Below the pieces are notes generated by a model. The model searched no databases and was not told the origin of the DNA. It worked only from the letters and a program-made list of their open reading frames with translations. Positions 34,344 to 44,920 of a stretch of 64,000 bases of DNA are shown here, piece after piece (the first letter of the stretch is position 1; each line of letters starts with the position of its first letter). This DNA is from Natrinema ejinorense (GTDB lineage Archaea > Halobacteriota > Halobacteria > Halobacteriales > Natrialbaceae). The stretch spans positions 1 through 64,000 of the forward strand of contig NZ_NXNI01000002.1 of assembly GCF_002494345.1 (NCBI RefSeq). Direction: 5' to 3'. Made by a program: the position numbers and the translations under genes.

Positions 34344-34844
34344 TTACTCGACGGAACGGTCACGCAGTCGGGACAGTGGCCCCGCCGGGAACAACTGGAA
34401 GAACACGGCCCGTGACGAGACGAGGGCACCGAGTCCCCCTCCAAACAACAGCGCCCAGATCGATGGGGAAACACCGCCCGTTTCCGCCAGATAATGGACG
34501 ATCAGGGTTGCAAGGGCCCACCACAGGGTGAACACGGCGAAGGGTCCGAGCACGAGCGAGGCGAGGATCCGAGTCACCGACGTGTCACTGGGCTGGAGTC
34601 GACCGCCGGAACCGAGCACTGCCGACCCAAGTCGGATTCCGTGTGCCAGTACACCGACCAGAACGGAAAGGGCGAGGAGACCAGGAACGAGTATGATTAC
34701 TGGGACCCAAAGCGGTCCAGGGACGGTCTCGAAAAGAATCGTGGAGTCGTTGACTACCCCGTCTGCCAAGAGGAGTGCGAGGACGGCGAGGACGGGTTCG
34801 ACTACTCGTCTCCCGACCAGACCCTCGAGATAGAACGCAAACAT
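34344..34844 (-). CDS. Membrane protein of unknown function
   Basis: 166 residues with about four hydrophobic helices (PVLAVLALLLADGVV, VPVIILVPGLLALSVLVGVL, a third near 110-130, a fourth GGVSPSIWALLFGGGLGAL) and a basic C-terminal tail. I do not recognise a family. A TATA-like CGTAATAGTT lies about 20 nt upstream of the ATG. It stands alone between a dead IS element and the MsrA-like gene. Confidence 0.6.
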   Translation of the reverse strand: MFAFYLEGLVGRRVVEPVLAVLALLLADGVVNDSTILFETVPGPLWVPVIILVPGLLALSVLVGVLAHGIRLGSAVLGSGGRLQPSDTSVTRILASLVLGPFAVFTLWWALATLIVHYLAETGGVSPSIWALLFGGGLGALVSSRAVFFQLFPAGPLSRLRDRSVE

Positions 34845-35658: not shown

Positions 35659-35862
35659 TCCATTAATTGTGTCTCAGTTCCCTGGTCTTAGATTGGGCGG
35701 TCCGTTTGTGGCTGCGTCCGTGATCAGCAAGATTCGGGGTGTGAACCAGTTAATAGCACGTAATGGAAGAAGTTATATTGACGCTCTCGAAACGTAAATA
35801 TATCCGCCTGGCGTTGTCGTTCTCCCAGATGGGTCGTCACCCGGGTCGGTTGTAGTGAACGC

Positions 35863-38800
35863 ATGGTATCTTCGATACAGGAAGTCAAACCCGACGAACT
35901 GATAGATGTCCTCGAGCCGGGTGATGTGGCCCTCGTTCTCGGTGCTCCCGGCGTCGGACAGTCACAGCACCTGCGGTCACTCGGCGAGATGGTCACCCAA
36001 CTGTCCGAAACTACCGCCGTCGATGACCAGGAACGCGTGATCGTCGAGGACTTCGTGTCCGCGGTGTTCGACCTCGACGACGAAGCTGTGGGGACCTACA
36101 GTGCCGAGTACGGCGAGAAATCGCTGTTTTCCAGATCGGGTGGTGCAGTGCTCGTCACCCGTCCACGGGGCTTCGACTGGCTTTGCCGGAGCGATCGTGG
36201 CGTCTCCGGAAGATTCATCGAGACGGTCGACACCGTTCTGCTGGTCCGAACACCGCCGACTGGTGCCACAGCCGCGATCGACGATGTTCGGCAGCGTCTC
36301 AACAAACGGAGCCTGGGCGGACTGCGAGACGACACGCGAGGGGCAGTGCTGGAGTGGGCCAGGTATCCGCCATACTACTTCGACACCCCCGAACTGCAGG
36401 AGAGACTGGGATGGTACGATGCGACAGTTACGCCCGCAGCGTTTCTCTCCCGCTCGAAATACGACGCTGCGGAGCTACTCCTGCCTGGCGACGCCAGGCG
36501 AGCGTTCGGGGACCGTGACGTCTCGGTCGGAGCGTTCAGCGGGGAGGTCGCGGACGTTGTTTCGCGACTCGTCCCGACTGGTGGCCTCCCCAGTCGAACC
36601 CCTAACGAACGTTCGCCAGCGGCCCTCGCTGCGGTAGCGCTGGTCGCCGTCGGACTCGCCGAGGATGCAGACTGGTTCGGAACCCTCGCTCGGTCTCGAG
36701 CACTCCCCACAACCGCCGAGGCACTGGAAATCGCCCTGGATCTTCCGCCCGGAACGATCGAGCACCTCCACGTGTTCGCCGCCGATCCCGCGCGAGCACT
36801 GATCCGCGATCGTCTCGCTGACGACGCCGACGAGGACTCAGTCGTCGACGTGGCACGTGACGTGATCGGAGAAGCGGTGGACGCGCTCCAAGCGGTGGCC
36901 CCAGCGCTCGAAACGATGTCGATGGGGCCTGAGACGTACGGCTCGTCGCCACTCGTCGGTGCCTGGCACTGGGACGGACCGCAAGCGTTGTGCGATTCCG
37001 CAGCCGAGCGTGAGATTCCCGAACTGATCCGGAAGTCGGACGGAACCGACGACGAGACGGACTCGGACTGGCGGACGTTCGTCGACGAAGCGGAATTTCT
37101 CGACGCGCTCGACGGGGGCCTAGTGGTTCTCTCCGGTCCCAAAGGGAGCGGGAAGCGACGGCTGGCCGCGTCCCTCGCATCGGAACTCTCCGACTGGGGA
37201 ACGACCGTTCGACTGCCCGCTCTCACACACCCCGACCACGTTCGGACGGGGATCGAGGCAACGCCGAACGCGGTCGTCGTCGCAACGTACGGTGCCGAGC
37301 CTGCGAGTGTCGACAGCGACGACGGCGTTCGAGCAGTCCCCGAGTGGGTCGACGACGGGAGCTGTGCGGGCGCACTGCTCATCTGTGACGACAGCAACCG
37401 TGAGCGGCTCGAGGACGTCGCCGAACGGACTGGCTGTGACGAACTCGACGCCTGGGCCGACCGCGTCGAGTTCTCGCTCGACGATCCGACCACCAATATC
37501 GATCGAGAGCCGGCGACCGTCGCTCGCGACCTGCTCGATGCGATCGGCTGGAACGAGATCCAGTCGCCGTCTCGCCGGTTAGTCGACGTCGAGTCCGTCA
37601 CGGACCAGAGCACACTGGCAGTGATTGCAGGTGTTTCGGATCACGCCCTCGATGGCGAGTTCGTCGGGACGGTCGTTGCCGAGGCCGTCGACATCATTTC
37701 GACGACGCACGGGCCAGCCGCGGCCGAGCAGTGGCTCTCGTTCATCGACGACCTCGTGGCGGATGTCGGGCGAAATCGAACCGCCGACTCCGACGAGTCC
37801 CTCCTGTACCGGGGAGAGGTCTACGAGACGGCAATCGCAGCCGTCGCCCGAGCGAACCCGAGGACCGACGAATGGGTCCACGCGGTCGCACGCGGCGTGC
37901 TCGAGGTCACGAACGAAACCGCCACCCCGCACGGACGGGAGTCGGTCGGTGGCGACGTGGAACCGTTTGCTACCGCTTTCACGGGCGCACTGGCGCGGCT
38001 CGCACAGCCGCCGGACGGCTCGAGGATGAACCACGGTGCGATCGAGTGTGTCGACCAGGCACTCCACGATATGGTCTCGGATGACGGGTGGCAGTTTCCG
38101 CTCCACGTCGTTTACGGGGGCGCGGTCGGCCGAATCGTCCGACGGGCTGACGATCCGATGGCGGCGAACGGCGGCATCACCACCATCGTCTCCCGTGTTC
38201 GCCAGCATGCAATGAGCCCCAACGATCGCTACACGATGGGCGTCCTCGGGAGCAGTTTCGCGTCTATGCTCGGGGCAGTCGCAGGTGTCGAGTGTTCACC
38301 CGAGGAACTGTCGGCCTGGGTAGCCGATATCGAGTCCCGTGCCAGGGAGGCAGTCCAGATCATCCTCGATCGGGAGACTCAACGTCTGATGCTCACGGAG
38401 TTCTACGTCGAAGGGATCGGTCTGTGGCTGTTCGAGCACGACTGTCCGGACGAGGACCTCGGCCCCTTCCTCGACGCCGTCGGCCGGAGCATGTGCCACA
38501 CAGCGACAGCGGTCGACCTCGACCACGATCCTGAAACGTTCGTCCTCGACGGGTACGGGCACGCCGTTCGGACGATCGTCCAAATGGGCGAGCTCGACCG
38601 AGCGGAACTGATGTTTTCGACGTGTCACCGGCTCGTCGATGCGATCGCGGAGTCCGGACAGTTCGAGACAGAACAGCAACTCCAAGCAGCCCTGCACGCG
38701 AAAGCGCTCGCCTCCTTTGGCGACGTCGAGCAGGACGATCCCGATGCGGTCAGCAGTTACCCGTACGGGATAGGGACGATTCCGTTCGACGACTCCCTCG

Positions 38801-40143
38801 GCTTCGAGGATTGGATGGAGCTATACGATGCCGCAGTGACGCGGGGAATCACGGTGGACGCACCCACCGAGGAGAGAACGCAATATCTGACTGAGATCTA
38901 CCGCGAGGCGCTCTCGACACACGTCCAGGGCTTCGACGCCGATTCGGACGATGGAGTGACGCCACGCGAGGAACATACCTGGTACGCCGGCCTCACGGAG
39001 CGAATCCAGGCACGGGCGACGGCGACTGATTCCGTCGACGATCCGATGCAGTTCCTCGCAGACGTGTACGGCGGTGCAGCCGTCAGGTGGGCTGCTGACG
39101 GGGACTCGAGTCGGACGCAGGAGTGGATCACGGTACTCGTCCAGTCGCTACGGACCAGTCGCGAGTCTATCGACGGGCCTGACGAGATGGACTGGTTCGA
39201 GGCGTTCGCGTCGACTGACGCCGAGATCCTGGCGGCAGTGGTGACTCGGACGGACGTCGGTGAACGGACACACGAACGGTTGGTCGAGGCGGTGCTGTCC
39301 CAGATCCAGGCGGCTGCGACGGCTCCGGACAATCCACCGCACCCGGTCACGTACGTGGCCTCCGTGTTCGGTGGTGCACTCGCACTCATTGCCGACACCG
39401 AGCCTGCGGAACGCCGATTCGGAGTGACCGAGGTCCTGACAGTCCTCGAGGAATCGTTCCCGCTCGACTGGATCGAACTCGAGCGAGCAGACGTCTTCGA
39501 GCGGATATACGCCGAGGCGCTCGCGAAGGCCGGCCGAACCCACACCGACGTCTCGGAGACGGCGGAGTGGCTCGAGATTGTCACCAGCAGAATCGAAGCG
39601 ACCGCCACGAGGGAAGCGCCGGAGCGCCCGGCCGAGTTCGTCGCCGCCGTGTACGTTCGAGCGATCTTCGACGCGGCTCAGCACGGTGCCGACGAGTGGC
39701 GTCGACGACTCAGTGCGGAGCTCCGGGAGTACGCGACGGGGCCGTACGTTGACGATCCGGCGGCGTTCCTCGAAGGCCTCTACGCCGACGTGGTCGTGAT
39801 GGGCGTAACGAACCACGGCCCCAGAATACGAATCGAAGCGTGCATCGACGCCGTCAGCGAGTCGCTCCAGGCCGCGAGCGACGCGGATCTGCTCCGCTCC
39901 GATGGTGCCCTGGAACGAACGGTTTCGCGAGCCGACGACACGCTGTCGTCGGCTAACGTCGAAAACCCCGGCGATTACGTGATCCGCATCGACCACGGTC
40001 TTCGGAGAACAGGACACGAGGCCCTCGCAAACGACCTCTTCGAACTCGAGGGGGGCGACGAACCCGATGGTCCCGGCGGCGAGACGGGCTCGAATCCCGA
40101 CGGAGGGCTCGGCAGCAACCCACCACAACGGGAGGATCGGTGA
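35863..40143 (+). CDS. Giant P-loop (STAND/AAA-like) protein with helical-repeat C-terminus
   Basis: 1426 residues, no signal peptide, very acidic, cytosolic. A degenerate P-loop GAPGVGQS (27-34, Lys replaced by Gln) opens the protein. A second NTPase-like region has LSGPKGSGKRR (423-433) and a Walker B-like ALLICDD (504-510). From about residue 600 to 1350 the protein is alpha-helical, with three related segments of about 100 residues starting near 1045, 1145 and 1241 that share I-x-A-x-A-T and P-x-x-F/Y-V/L-A-x-V-Y/F-x-x-A. The C-terminus is Gly/Asp-rich and disordered. The layout resembles STAND-type sensors. The HEAT-repeat gene follows 94 bp downstream. I do not recognise a named family. 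Confidence 0.75.
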   Translation: MVSSIQEVKPDELIDVLEPGDVALVLGAPGVGQSQHLRSLGEMVTQLSETTAVDDQERVIVEDFVSAVFDLDDEAVGTYSAEYGEKSLFSRSGGAVLVTRPRGFDWLCRSDRGVSGRFIETVDTVLLVRTPPTGATAAIDDVRQRLNKRSLGGLRDDTRGAVLEWARYPPYYFDTPELQERLGWYDATVTPAAFLSRSKYDAAELLLPGDARRAFGDRDVSVGAFSGEVADVVSRLVPTGGLPSRTPNERSPAALAAVALVAVGLAEDADWFGTLARSRALPTTAEALEIALDLPPGTIEHLHVFAADPARALIRDRLADDADEDSVVDVARDVIGEAVDALQAVAPALETMSMGPETYGSSPLVGAWHWDGPQALCDSAAEREIPELIRKSDGTDDETDSDWRTFVDEAEFLDALDGGLVVLSGPKGSGKRRLAASLASELSDWGTTVRLPALTHPDHVRTGIEATPNAVVVATYGAEPASVDSDDGVRAVPEWVDDGSCAGALLICDDSNRERLEDVAERTGCDELDAWADRVEFSLDDPTTNIDREPATVARDLLDAIGWNEIQSPSRRLVDVESVTDQSTLAVIAGVSDHALDGEFVGTVVAEAVDIISTTHGPAAAEQWLSFIDDLVADVGRNRTADSDESLLYRGEVYETAIAAVARANPRTDEWVHAVARGVLEVTNETATPHGRESVGGDVEPFATAFTGALARLAQPPDGSRMNHGAIECVDQALHDMVSDDGWQFPLHVVYGGAVGRIVRRADDPMAANGGITTIVSRVRQHAMSPNDRYTMGVLGSSFASMLGAVAGVECSPEELSAWVADIESRAREAVQIILDRETQRLMLTEFYVEGIGLWLFEHDCPDEDLGPFLDAVGRSMCHTATAVDLDHDPETFVLDGYGHAVRTIVQMGELDRAELMFSTCHRLVDAIAESGQFETEQQLQAALHAKALASFGDVEQDDPDAVSSYPYGIGTIPFDDSLGFEDWMELYDAAVTRGITVDAPTEERTQYLTEIYREALSTHVQGFDADSDDGVTPREEHTWYAGLTERIQARATATDSVDDPMQFLADVYGGAAVRWAADGDSSRTQEWITVLVQSLRTSRESIDGPDEMDWFEAFASTDAEILAAVVTRTDVGERTHERLVEAVLSQIQAAATAPDNPPHPVTYVASVFGGALALIADTEPAERRFGVTEVLTVLEESFPLDWIELERADVFERIYAEALAKAGRTHTDVSETAEWLEIVTSRIEATATREAPERPAEFVAAVYVRAIFDAAQHGADEWRRRLSAELREYATGPYVDDPAAFLEGLYADVVVMGVTNHGPRIRIEACIDAVSESLQAASDADLLRSDGALERTVSRADDTLSSANVENPGDYVIRIDHGLRRTGHEALANDLFELEGGDEPDGPGGETGSNPDGGLGSNPPQREDR

Positions 40144-40237
40144 GCACGCTGGTTCGATGTATCGTGTAAACGACCGCTCGACGGTCGTCGGAACCGAACG
40201 ATAGACAACCGATACGAGTCCGGATTCGGGAGACAGC

Positions 40238-42193
40238 ATGACCGATCACGCAGACGCACCAGACGATCCAGAACGACGAGTCGAATACCTTCGAGAAACA
40301 GTTGATCCCGCCACGGCGACCGACGACGACATCGACGCGTGGTGTGAACTGCTCGCCGAACGCGATGCACGCTCGCCGGCTTTCGATGCGCTCCGTGAAA
40401 TCTCCGCCGTCCATCGGGATGGACGGCGGGTCGCAGCGGCCATCCAACCCTACGTCGTTCACGAAAACAAACGAGTGTGGGAGAACGCGACCGAGATCCT
40501 CGTAGGGCTCGCACTGGACGATCCAGACGCGCTGGAGGCCACTATCGACTTCCTCGTGGAAACCCTCGACGCCGACGACGACCACCGGCGCGAAACCGCC
40601 TGGTCCGTCCTCGTCGAACTCGCCGAGGTCAAGCCCGTATTGGTTCACTCGCACGTGGACGAGATCATCGGCTATCTCGACCACGACGATGTCTGGCTGC
40701 GTCGCGAGGCCATCGGACTGCTGGCGGCCATCTCGGACGTCTACCCGGAAGCGATCGCTCCGGCCAGCGACGAACTGCTAACGATTTCTCGGGACGAGAG
40801 TGAGGACGTGAGCGCTCTTCCCGGGCCACTCAACCGGATCGCGTTGGTCCGCCCCGATATCGTCCGTCCCGTCGTCGAGGACGTGCGGGACATGCTCACC
40901 GACGAGGTGGTCCATCTTCGGATCGCCGCTGCGACCTCACTCGCCACTATCGCTATCGCGTATCCCGACGAACTCCCGCACGTGGTCGAGGACTTGCTTA
41001 CGCTTGCCGAGGAGGACCCCGAAACTCGGCATCTCGATCTCGCGCGAAGCACAGCGGTCCGGTCGCTCGGACGCATCGGGACCGAGCATCCCGACGCAGT
41101 CGTTCCAGAACTGGACCGTCTCGTAGCGAAACTCGACGACGAGAACGAACAAGTCCGCTCGTCCGCCGTAGACGCGCTCGGGCACATCGCCACCGTTCGG
41201 CCCGCTGCAGTCCGACCCTGTGTCGAGAACCTGGTGGCGATGCTCGAAGACAAAGCCGAAACCGTACAGTTCTCGCTCGTACGGGCACTCGGGAAGATCG
41301 CAGCTGCAGACTCCGAGGTCGCGCCGCTCGTCGTCGAGGCGTTGGACGAGTGGTTTGACCGCGTCGAGGTGGTGAACAGATACCGCGACGATTTCGAGTA
41401 CACTATGCGGTGGTCGATCATCGACGCGTTCGGACGAATCGGTGCGAGCCATCCCGACGTACTCGAGCCGGTCGTGGACGATCTGCGGGGCTTTCTCGCC
41501 GAGGACGGACTCGCTTCGAACGCCGCCGAGGCGCTCGGTGAGATCGGTGCCGTCCGTCCCGACGCCGTACGCTCCGCCGTCGCGGACCTCCATGCGTTGC
41601 TTGCCGACGATAACTGCACAAATCGGAAATCGGCCGCCGTCGCACTCGGGAAGATCGGGGCCGTCGATCCCGACGTGGCGTCACTCGTCGTCGACGACCT
41701 GCAGACGCTTCTCGACGACGATCGGCACTATGGGCGAGCGGCGGCTGCCGAGGCACTCGGAACGATCGCTACGGCGGATTCGGACGTGGCGTCACGCGTC
41801 AGCGACGACATTCAGCCGCTCGCGAACGACGACCATCACGACGTCCGGTCGGCAGCGCTCGAAGCGCTCGGGAAGACCGGGGTCTCGGATCCGGATACGG
41901 CGTCGCTCGTCTTCGACGATCTGCAGGCCGGCCTCCACGATGTCGATCCGAAAGTGCGTTCGTCAGCAGCCAACGCGCTCGGAGTGGTCGGAGCCGCTCA
42001 TCGTGAGCGGGCTCCGCTCGCCACCGACGCGCTTCGATCCCGTCTCGAGCGTGACGACGAATATCTGTCCGTACGGTCGTCGATCGCCGAGGGATTACAG
42101 TCGATCAAGCTGTCCCACCCCGGCGTAGTCCAGCGTACCAGTACGGAGCTCCAAGCCCACATCGACGCTGCCATCGACGTGGGACGTGAGTAG
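40238..42193 (+). CDS. HEAT-repeat protein
   Basis: 651 residues made almost entirely of two-helix HEAT units of about 37-38 residues, each with the pattern VRSSAVDALGHIA then P-x-x-V-x-P-x-V-x-x-L-x-x-L-L-x-D. At least a dozen units run from about residue 60 to the end. Such solenoids bind proteins or nucleic acid; no enzymatic motif is visible. The gene is 94 bp downstream of the 1426-residue P-loop protein on the same strand and is probably its partner. Near-identical units suggest recent expansion by internal duplication. Confidence 0.85.
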   Translation: MTDHADAPDDPERRVEYLRETVDPATATDDDIDAWCELLAERDARSPAFDALREISAVHRDGRRVAAAIQPYVVHENKRVWENATEILVGLALDDPDALEATIDFLVETLDADDDHRRETAWSVLVELAEVKPVLVHSHVDEIIGYLDHDDVWLRREAIGLLAAISDVYPEAIAPASDELLTISRDESEDVSALPGPLNRIALVRPDIVRPVVEDVRDMLTDEVVHLRIAAATSLATIAIAYPDELPHVVEDLLTLAEEDPETRHLDLARSTAVRSLGRIGTEHPDAVVPELDRLVAKLDDENEQVRSSAVDALGHIATVRPAAVRPCVENLVAMLEDKAETVQFSLVRALGKIAAADSEVAPLVVEALDEWFDRVEVVNRYRDDFEYTMRWSIIDAFGRIGASHPDVLEPVVDDLRGFLAEDGLASNAAEALGEIGAVRPDAVRSAVADLHALLADDNCTNRKSAAVALGKIGAVDPDVASLVVDDLQTLLDDDRHYGRAAAAEALGTIATADSDVASRVSDDIQPLANDDHHDVRSAALEALGKTGVSDPDTASLVFDDLQAGLHDVDPKVRSSAANALGVVGAAHRERAPLATDALRSRLERDDEYLSVRSSIAEGLQSIKLSHPGVVQRTSTELQAHIDAAIDVGRE

Positions 42194-42540
42194 CTGGCTA
42201 TCAGGCGCTCTCGAAGTCGAGACGCGATGCAGAGCGTGTTAGATGATCAGACAATCCGTCGAGACCAACGGTGGGTGGTTGTCGGTACATACTGCACTAT
42301 AGTAGCAACTGAAACGATTTACACACTGATCGCAACGCTGCCGTGCGATCAGGTGTGCAATGACTTTCAGTTGCTACTATAGACGTCGAGCCAAAGCGAT
42401 TCGGTATCAACAACGATCGTGTCCGTCGTTCGCTCCGCATCGTCGGCAACCCGTCGACTACGGCATCATCTCGCTGGTCTCGGGGGATCGTATTGAAACC
42501 GTGCTCCCAGTTACTGGTGAGAGATACGATAGATAATTGG
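42194..42540. other. Intergenic with a MITE-like hairpin
   Basis: The spacer between the HEAT-repeat gene and the convergent beta-propeller gene is gene-free. Its main content is the 86-bp inverted-repeat element at 42297-42382. Confidence 0.5.
42297..42382. mobile_element. 86-bp MITE-like element with 18-bp perfect terminal inverted repeats
   Basis: CTATAGTAGCAACTGAAA at the left and its exact reverse complement at the right. The inner halves also pair (ACACTGATCGCA against TGCGATCAGGTGT), so the whole unit folds into one hairpin. The outermost CTATAG is itself palindromic, so it can be read either as repeat end or as a 6-bp target duplication. It has no coding capacity and is probably mobilised by a transposase encoded elsewhere. 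Confidence 0.7.
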
Positions 42541-43899: not shown

Positions 43900-44075
43900 C
43901 GTCACGTCTAACCGAGTAGTGTACAAACTGTTCAAGTAACTCTCTGACGCTTGCCCGACTGCCCACCCATGAATCATGAACGCGAAACGATCATTTTGAG
44001 CGTGTGAAAACACTGTTCGATCCGGTTCGATCAAGGTACTCGAGTTGATCGCTCACTCCTAATACTGCTGTCAAG
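43900..44075 (-). pseudogene. Fragment of an IS6-type transposase
   Basis: Read on the minus strand with two frameshifts it gives SNRIEQCFHTLKM, then HDSWVGSRASVRELLEQFVH. These match the second half of haloarchaeal IS6-type transposases (DRN-IEKWFHTLKM ... SWVGSR-SVREW-EQFVHYY). The third catalytic residue region is degraded. Confidence 0.6.
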
Positions 44076-44403: not shown

Positions 44404-44479
44404 GGTTTCTTATGGATATCCACTACTGCGGCACCAGCTAATTTTGAATACCCCCACTGGTACTTTTCTATCGAGAGTT

Positions 44480-44920
44480 TGATACGGTGGTTACAGTAAT
44501 ACATAAATCATTCAAGCTACTCACGGCCGTTCGACTGCCTGCCCACCCACGGGTTGTGGAAGCGGTCGATCCGCACGTTGAGCGTGTGAGACCATTTTCC
44601 GATGGGGTTTCGATCGGTCTAGTTGACCCGACCACACAATCCTACTCGAGCAAGGGCGATCCGATAGCTGAATTGGGCAACGAAAATCCTGCCTCGGTGT
44701 CTATCGCAGCATACAACCAAGACCGTCCGCCGTTGACCTTGACAGCGGTTTCGTCAACTGCGACACGCAACGGGGATGTCACCAGCGGGTCGTGTCTACT
44801 CATTCACCAACGATTCTTCCACATCCGGCGCATATCTCTCGCTGAGCAGGTCTGCGAACATTTGAACCAAGAGACGCAACGACCCACTCACGTCTCGAAC
44901 TGACGCAACTAGACAGTGCC
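44480..44920 (-). pseudogene. Decayed IS6-type element, minus strand
   Basis: Begins at the terminal repeat GGCACTGTCTAGTT (44920-44907 on the minus strand). A start at 44861 gives MFADLLSERYAPDVEESLVN then a stop. Farther on are VAVDETAVKVNGGRSWLYAA (first catalytic Asp), and after deletion of the middle, DRNPIGKWSHTLNVRIDRFH and NPWVG before further stops. This is the usual order of the haloarchaeal IS6-type transposase, so it is a dead copy missing the central region and C-terminus. Confidence 0.7.

Follow-up and report, generated by a model that had tools for sequence, protein, structure and literature searches.

We found that a stretch of DNA from the haloarchaeon Natrinema ejinorense encodes a giant STAND-derived, probably ATPase-dead solenoid protein next to a clade-specific HEAT-repeat partner, and that the two belong to an undescribed haloarchaeal island. 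The whole stretch analysed, hereafter the window, spans 64,000 nucleotides of contig NZ_NXNI01000002.1 (assembly GCF_002494345.1). Both open reading frames proposed in the initial annotation, and the 94-bp gap between them, proved exact. The genes and the elements preceding them are as follows.

35765..35780, forward strand: BRE/TATA-type promoter GGAAGAAGTTATATTG, its TATA at -90 from the large-gene ATG
35812..35824, forward strand: leader or operator-like element CGTTGTCGTTCTC, at -51 of the large gene
35863..40143, forward strand: large gene, 1426 aa, with tandem P-loop-derived regions and an alpha-solenoid (from the ORF, homologues and alignment)
40238..42193, forward strand: 651-aa HEAT-repeat partner, separated from the preceding large gene by 94 bp (HEAT_2, E 2.8e-35)

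Both frames are real genes rather than chance ORFs of G+C-rich DNA, since full-length homologues are known from more than one family and from several genera of the order (47-89% identity for the large gene), the large-gene dN/dS is 0.32-0.36, and the promoter is conserved and of archaeal type. The HEAT gene gave a dN/dS of 0.48-0.78, and selection on the pair is purifying but relaxed. The TATA element lies at -89 to -91 in 12 of the 13 clade A genes, the exception (G157) being due to its called start. The leader element has the core [CT]GTTGTC at a fixed distance of 39 bp from the TATA, likewise in 12/13 clade A genes, and its 13-mer occurs only once within the window. No RNA family or tRNA was found in the window. 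The contig itself (416 kb) carries its own full-length Orc1/Cdc6 gene and is therefore plausibly an extrachromosomal replicon.

Within the large protein, we located the following features; the P-loops, the strands and the two short motifs are taken from a motif table. N1 denotes the first, N-terminal P-loop-derived domain and N2 the second P-loop domain.

35941..35964, forward strand: N1 P-loop GAPGVGQS, residues 27-34, Walker A lysine gone
36037..36054, forward strand: N1 Walker B-like strand VIVEDF, residues 59-64
36160..36183, forward strand: RPxxxDWL-type motif, residues 100-107, its DW invariant even in remote relatives
36613..36660, forward strand: conserved hydrophobic segment, residues 251-266, among the most hydrophobic stretches of most members
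36742..36756, forward strand: LPPGT motif, residues 294-298, LPPxT in all family members, remote ones included
37114..37482, forward strand: N2, an nSTAND3/AAA_16-like P-loop domain, residues 418-540, from sub-threshold Pfam matches
37135..37158, forward strand: N2 P-loop GPKGSGKR, residues 425-432, Arg in place of Ser/Thr
37273..37293, forward strand: N2 strand 3 VVVATYG, residues 471-477, Walker B position without an acid
37375..37392, forward strand: N2 strand 4 LLICDD, residues 505-510
37495..40002, forward strand: alpha-solenoid, residues 545-1380, about 17 helix pairs of ~48 residues, from AlphaFold, Foldseek and self-similarity

The degenerate first P-loop and the second P-loop described in the initial annotation are both present, and neither fits the Walker A consensus GxxxxGK[ST]. 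The Walker B-like strand that it reported corresponds to LLICDD; the strand exists, but it occupies the strand-4/sensor-1 position, and the true Walker B position is that of VVVATYG, where none of the 28 aligned family members carries an acid. In the window protein, an acidic Walker B-like strand is confined to N1. The nSTAND3 profile (PF20720) scored 18.9 bits against a gathering threshold of 27.2, below the cut-off, and a remote relative (L124) scored 28.3 bits, above it. A winged-helix segment was recognised by eye in remote relatives only, and the window's clade aligns there as gaps or diverged sequence. The large protein thus resembles nSTAND3/AAA_16 STAND NTPases in the P-loop at the N2 position, the strands that follow it and the long repeat C-terminus. 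It differs from them in its sub-threshold score, the Walker A arginine, the missing acidic Walker B, the lack of a detected winged helix and the extra P-loop-derived domain upstream. Of the STAND assignment made earlier, the general outline with a repeat C-terminus held up, but an active NTPase core did not, both P-loops being degenerate and the winged-helix domain not found. We conclude that the large protein, with its nSTAND3-like N2, P-loop-derived N1 and long solenoid, descends from STAND-type ATPases, and the motifs suggest that ATP-driven switching has probably been lost in the window's clade. Because both nucleotide sites are degenerate, a binding scaffold is likelier than an ATP-switched assembly. 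A STAND descendant without working nucleotide sites would also be of evolutionary interest as a test case.

A P-loop-derived region spans residues 1-135; its strands are of Walker A-like, Walker B-like and sensor-like type. Clade B keeps an intact N1 Walker A (GAPSVGKS), whose lysine is replaced by T, Q, G or M in clade A and its nearest sisters. The RPxxxDWL-type and LPPxT motifs persist even in remote relatives that lack any N1 P-loop signature. An AlphaFold model of residues 1-700 built from three close sequences reached a pLDDT of only 33 and was left unused, so our reading of the N-terminal part rests on motifs. Profile comparison gave no support for homology between N1 and N2. The hydrophobic segment is possibly a buried helix or a membrane contact; a membrane pore was considered and rejected, as a Kyte-Doolittle value of only about 1.5 does not make this segment a confident transmembrane helix.

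The long alpha-helical C-terminus that had been noticed at the outset was borne out, residues 545-1380 being all-helical. AlphaFold modelled residues 545-1426 at a mean pLDDT of 67 with 36 helices, and Foldseek returned HEAT/ARM-type matches including importins, with low TM-scores. The solenoid is similar to itself at the profile level (E 5.7e-13). Together, the model and the internal repeats give the large protein the C-terminal superstructure-forming repeats by which STAND proteins are recognised. Profile comparison did not support kinship of the solenoid with either the HEAT partner or c9, a giant repeat protein of related islands.

We then assessed the pairing with the HEAT gene across 392 genomes of the order. 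The HEAT family (E 1e-30 or better) occurs in nine of them; eight of the nine also carry the large gene (hypergeometric p about 5e-10, uncorrected for shared ancestry), and in seven the two are adjacent. The proposed pairing is therefore genuine, with the HEAT family near-confined to large-gene genomes, and with the large gene present in 8/9 HEAT genomes, HEAT depends more strongly on the large gene than the large gene does on HEAT. In the tree, 7 of the 12 members of a single clade have the HEAT gene about 90-210 bp downstream of the large gene, and the large-protein family outside this clade has no such neighbour. Rare adjacency of the homologues had been named as evidence that would count against the pair; adjacency holds in the window's clade, but most of the whole large-protein family is without a HEAT neighbour. 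In G018, the HEAT gene adjoins the large gene but has an internal stop. HEAT remnants are found in G016 (N-terminus) and G019 (C-terminus), with none in the clade's other non-adjacent members, a pattern of repeated HEAT loss within the 12-member clade. One standalone HEAT gene, in G272, lies on a short contig whose 0.8 kb upstream does not encode the large protein, and it adjoins two island genes, c21 and c7. Alignment of the intergenic region revealed no conserved element comparable to the large-gene promoter. This is compatible with co-transcription without proving it, and the pair is probably an operon.

Counting fragments, the large gene has matches in 24 of the order's 392 genomes, from ten genera, and in 11 of the 29 genomes available for its own genus. 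Relatives are carried on haloarchaeal plasmids, copies are often decayed, and the annotated plasmid homologues are all labelled 'hypothetical protein'. The patchy occurrence in unrelated genera and on plasmids suggests that the pair spread by horizontal transfer. A viral origin was rejected, as no relative was found among viral contigs. The large-protein family is not described in the literature searched, which lay mostly outside subscription journals.

The pair in the window is a reduced form of a larger modular island of haloarchaea. About nine families recur in it, namely the large gene, HEAT, c4, c5, c6, c7, c9, c19 and c21, and the island families tested were absent from all 17 control loci of the same genomes. 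In most clade B loci, c5 (about 105 aa) and c4 (86 aa) adjoin the large gene. These two are near-exclusive to large-gene genomes: c5 occurs in 12/392 genomes, 11 of them with the large gene, and all ten strong c4 matches in 313 genomes accompany the large gene or its relic. Searches of Pfam, NCBIfam and PDB gave no match that would indicate a function for c4 or c5. The remaining families (c6, c7, c9, c19 and c21) also recur, in combinations that differ from locus to locus. No c-family or immunity-type gene lies close to the pair in the window, and several other intact large-gene members also lack c4 and c5. Related islands have mixed strands and large gaps, and only the large gene and HEAT are co-oriented and close. 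In Haloferax mediterranei ATCC 33500, plasmid pHME505 carries the large gene E6P09_RS15215 with c4, c6, c7 and c9. Its plasmid pHME132 carries the HEAT homologue E6P09_RS19245 near a PGAP-annotated Imm5 as well as c19 and c21, with c5, c7 and c9 present there as remnants. Further loci contain SUKH-1 (G240), SUFU with ankyrin and further HEAT proteins (G004), or HEAT with DUF7716 (G001).

Several side observations concern the island genes. G004 (L043, L044) and G240 (L073, L074) each carry a convergent pair of large genes, one from either clade, about 10 kb apart with small immunity-type and island genes between them; of the two copies in G004, one is a relic. The c9 protein (L073:303-5570) has 1755 aa with helical repeats of about 40 residues and a DUF6584 match, and in several genomes its gene and the large gene are divergently oriented. 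The c6 protein (L046:12374-12778, 134 aa) is 80-100% identical across haloarchaeal islands, which is unusually conserved for the island, and has homologues on bacterial plasmids at 25-33% identity. A place for c6 in bacterial toxin loci was considered and dropped, as it does not stand beside toxin genes in three annotated records.

Zhang et al. 2012 counted SUKH, SuFu, ankyrin, HEAT and Imm5 among the immunity families of polymorphic toxin systems and also defined polyimmunity loci (PMC3482391). The islands resemble such loci and Imm-HEAT in the SUKH, SUFU-ankyrin, HEAT and Imm5 genes that some of them carry and in varying between relatives. They differ in having both orientations, large gaps and a giant STAND-derived protein, and in being haloarchaeal with no toxin seen; none of the loci yielded a toxin or an effector. 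In a de-duplicated Pfam census of neighbours, immunity-type families were slightly enriched over the control, some members having been added by hand. Since this census is weakly enriched and partly hand-picked, we treat immunity as the leading reading and not as demonstrated.

Our best explanation, which we favour tentatively and at somewhat below an even chance, is that the genes are a transferred binding or immunity-type pair, probably working as a binding scaffold in conflict between cells or with mobile elements. The solenoid and the HEAT partner would recognise a protein ligand, which may be a toxin from a rival cell or the product of a mobile element. Binding would then either neutralise the ligand or pass a signal to another factor. 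A more far-reaching proposal, which we consider unlikely, is that the pair is central to a haloarchaeal conflict system not described before, where a pseudo-ATPase of STAND descent would serve as a pure recognition scaffold with interchangeable partners (HEAT plus c4-c7, c9, c19 and c21). If true, the island would be a modular immunity unit centred on a giant pseudo-NLR. Archaeal conflict systems are little known, and members of several haloarchaeal families share this unnamed island; as Haloferax mediterranei carries island genes, the idea can be tested directly.

The strongest competitor, doubtful but with a real share of the probability, is a divergent antiviral STAND sensor of the Avs/NLR-like kind, whose solenoid and HEAT partner would sense a viral protein and whose effector would be the N-terminal 400 residues or act in trans. 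Avs and bacterial NLR-like antiviral STAND proteins combine an N-terminal module, a central NTPase-like domain and C-terminal repeats, and the large protein has the same order of parts. The winged-helix-like segment and the above-threshold nSTAND3 match of remote relatives also point this way, as do the patchy, plasmid-borne distribution and the defence-type matches near some members (UvrD-like helicase, methyltransferase and others), which were counted without a control set. Unlike Avs and its relatives, however, the large protein has no recognised effector domain and a separate HEAT partner, and its nucleotide sites are degenerate, the first without the Walker A lysine and the second without the Mg-binding Ser/Thr and the Walker B acid. 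The immunity-type neighbours also speak against such a sensor. PADLOC returned only one match for the large protein, a weak one to the mad8 P-loop (0.0069); with this and with no relative in viral contigs, the antiviral role suggested at the outset is unsupported. For the HEAT partner, PADLOC gave generic HEAT matches including Olokun OloA at 1e-15, a likeness in HEAT repeats that is generic and covers part of the model.

That the pair serves the cell as a scaffold or chaperone-like assembly unit, outside any conflict, is improbable. HEAT and solenoid proteins have many known assembly roles, and the solenoid model is matched by importins and other HEAT/ARM proteins, if at low TM-scores, but rare, horizontally spread and often decayed copies under relaxed dN/dS misfit a housekeeping function. 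About equally improbable is a toxin-antitoxin-like maintenance or regulatory system of the plasmid or island, with c4/c5 or HEAT controlling the large protein: the near-exclusive c4 and c5, the plasmid location in named records, the Orc1/Cdc6 gene on the contig and the conserved promoter with its operator-like element would suit it, but c4/c5 are missing from the window and from several intact members and so are no obligatory antitoxins, and intact large genes occur where HEAT has been lost.

The surroundings of the pair had been described as a zone of dead mobile elements. This was correct for the region just downstream, where a MITE-like hairpin and fragments present in many copies are found, but genes of ordinary metabolism make up the close flanks. 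The hairpin (window 42297-42382) is an 86-bp near-perfect palindrome with terminal inverted repeats (ACTATAGTAGCAACTGAAA...), and copies at about 90-99% identity are found in many Natrinema genomes. Short stretches at 43915-44063 and 44456-44697 are multi-copy across the genus and are probably insertion-element remnants. On the upstream side, positions 34344-34844 encode a 166-aa predicted hydrophobic protein without a Pfam match, which in G019 likewise lies upstream of the large gene.
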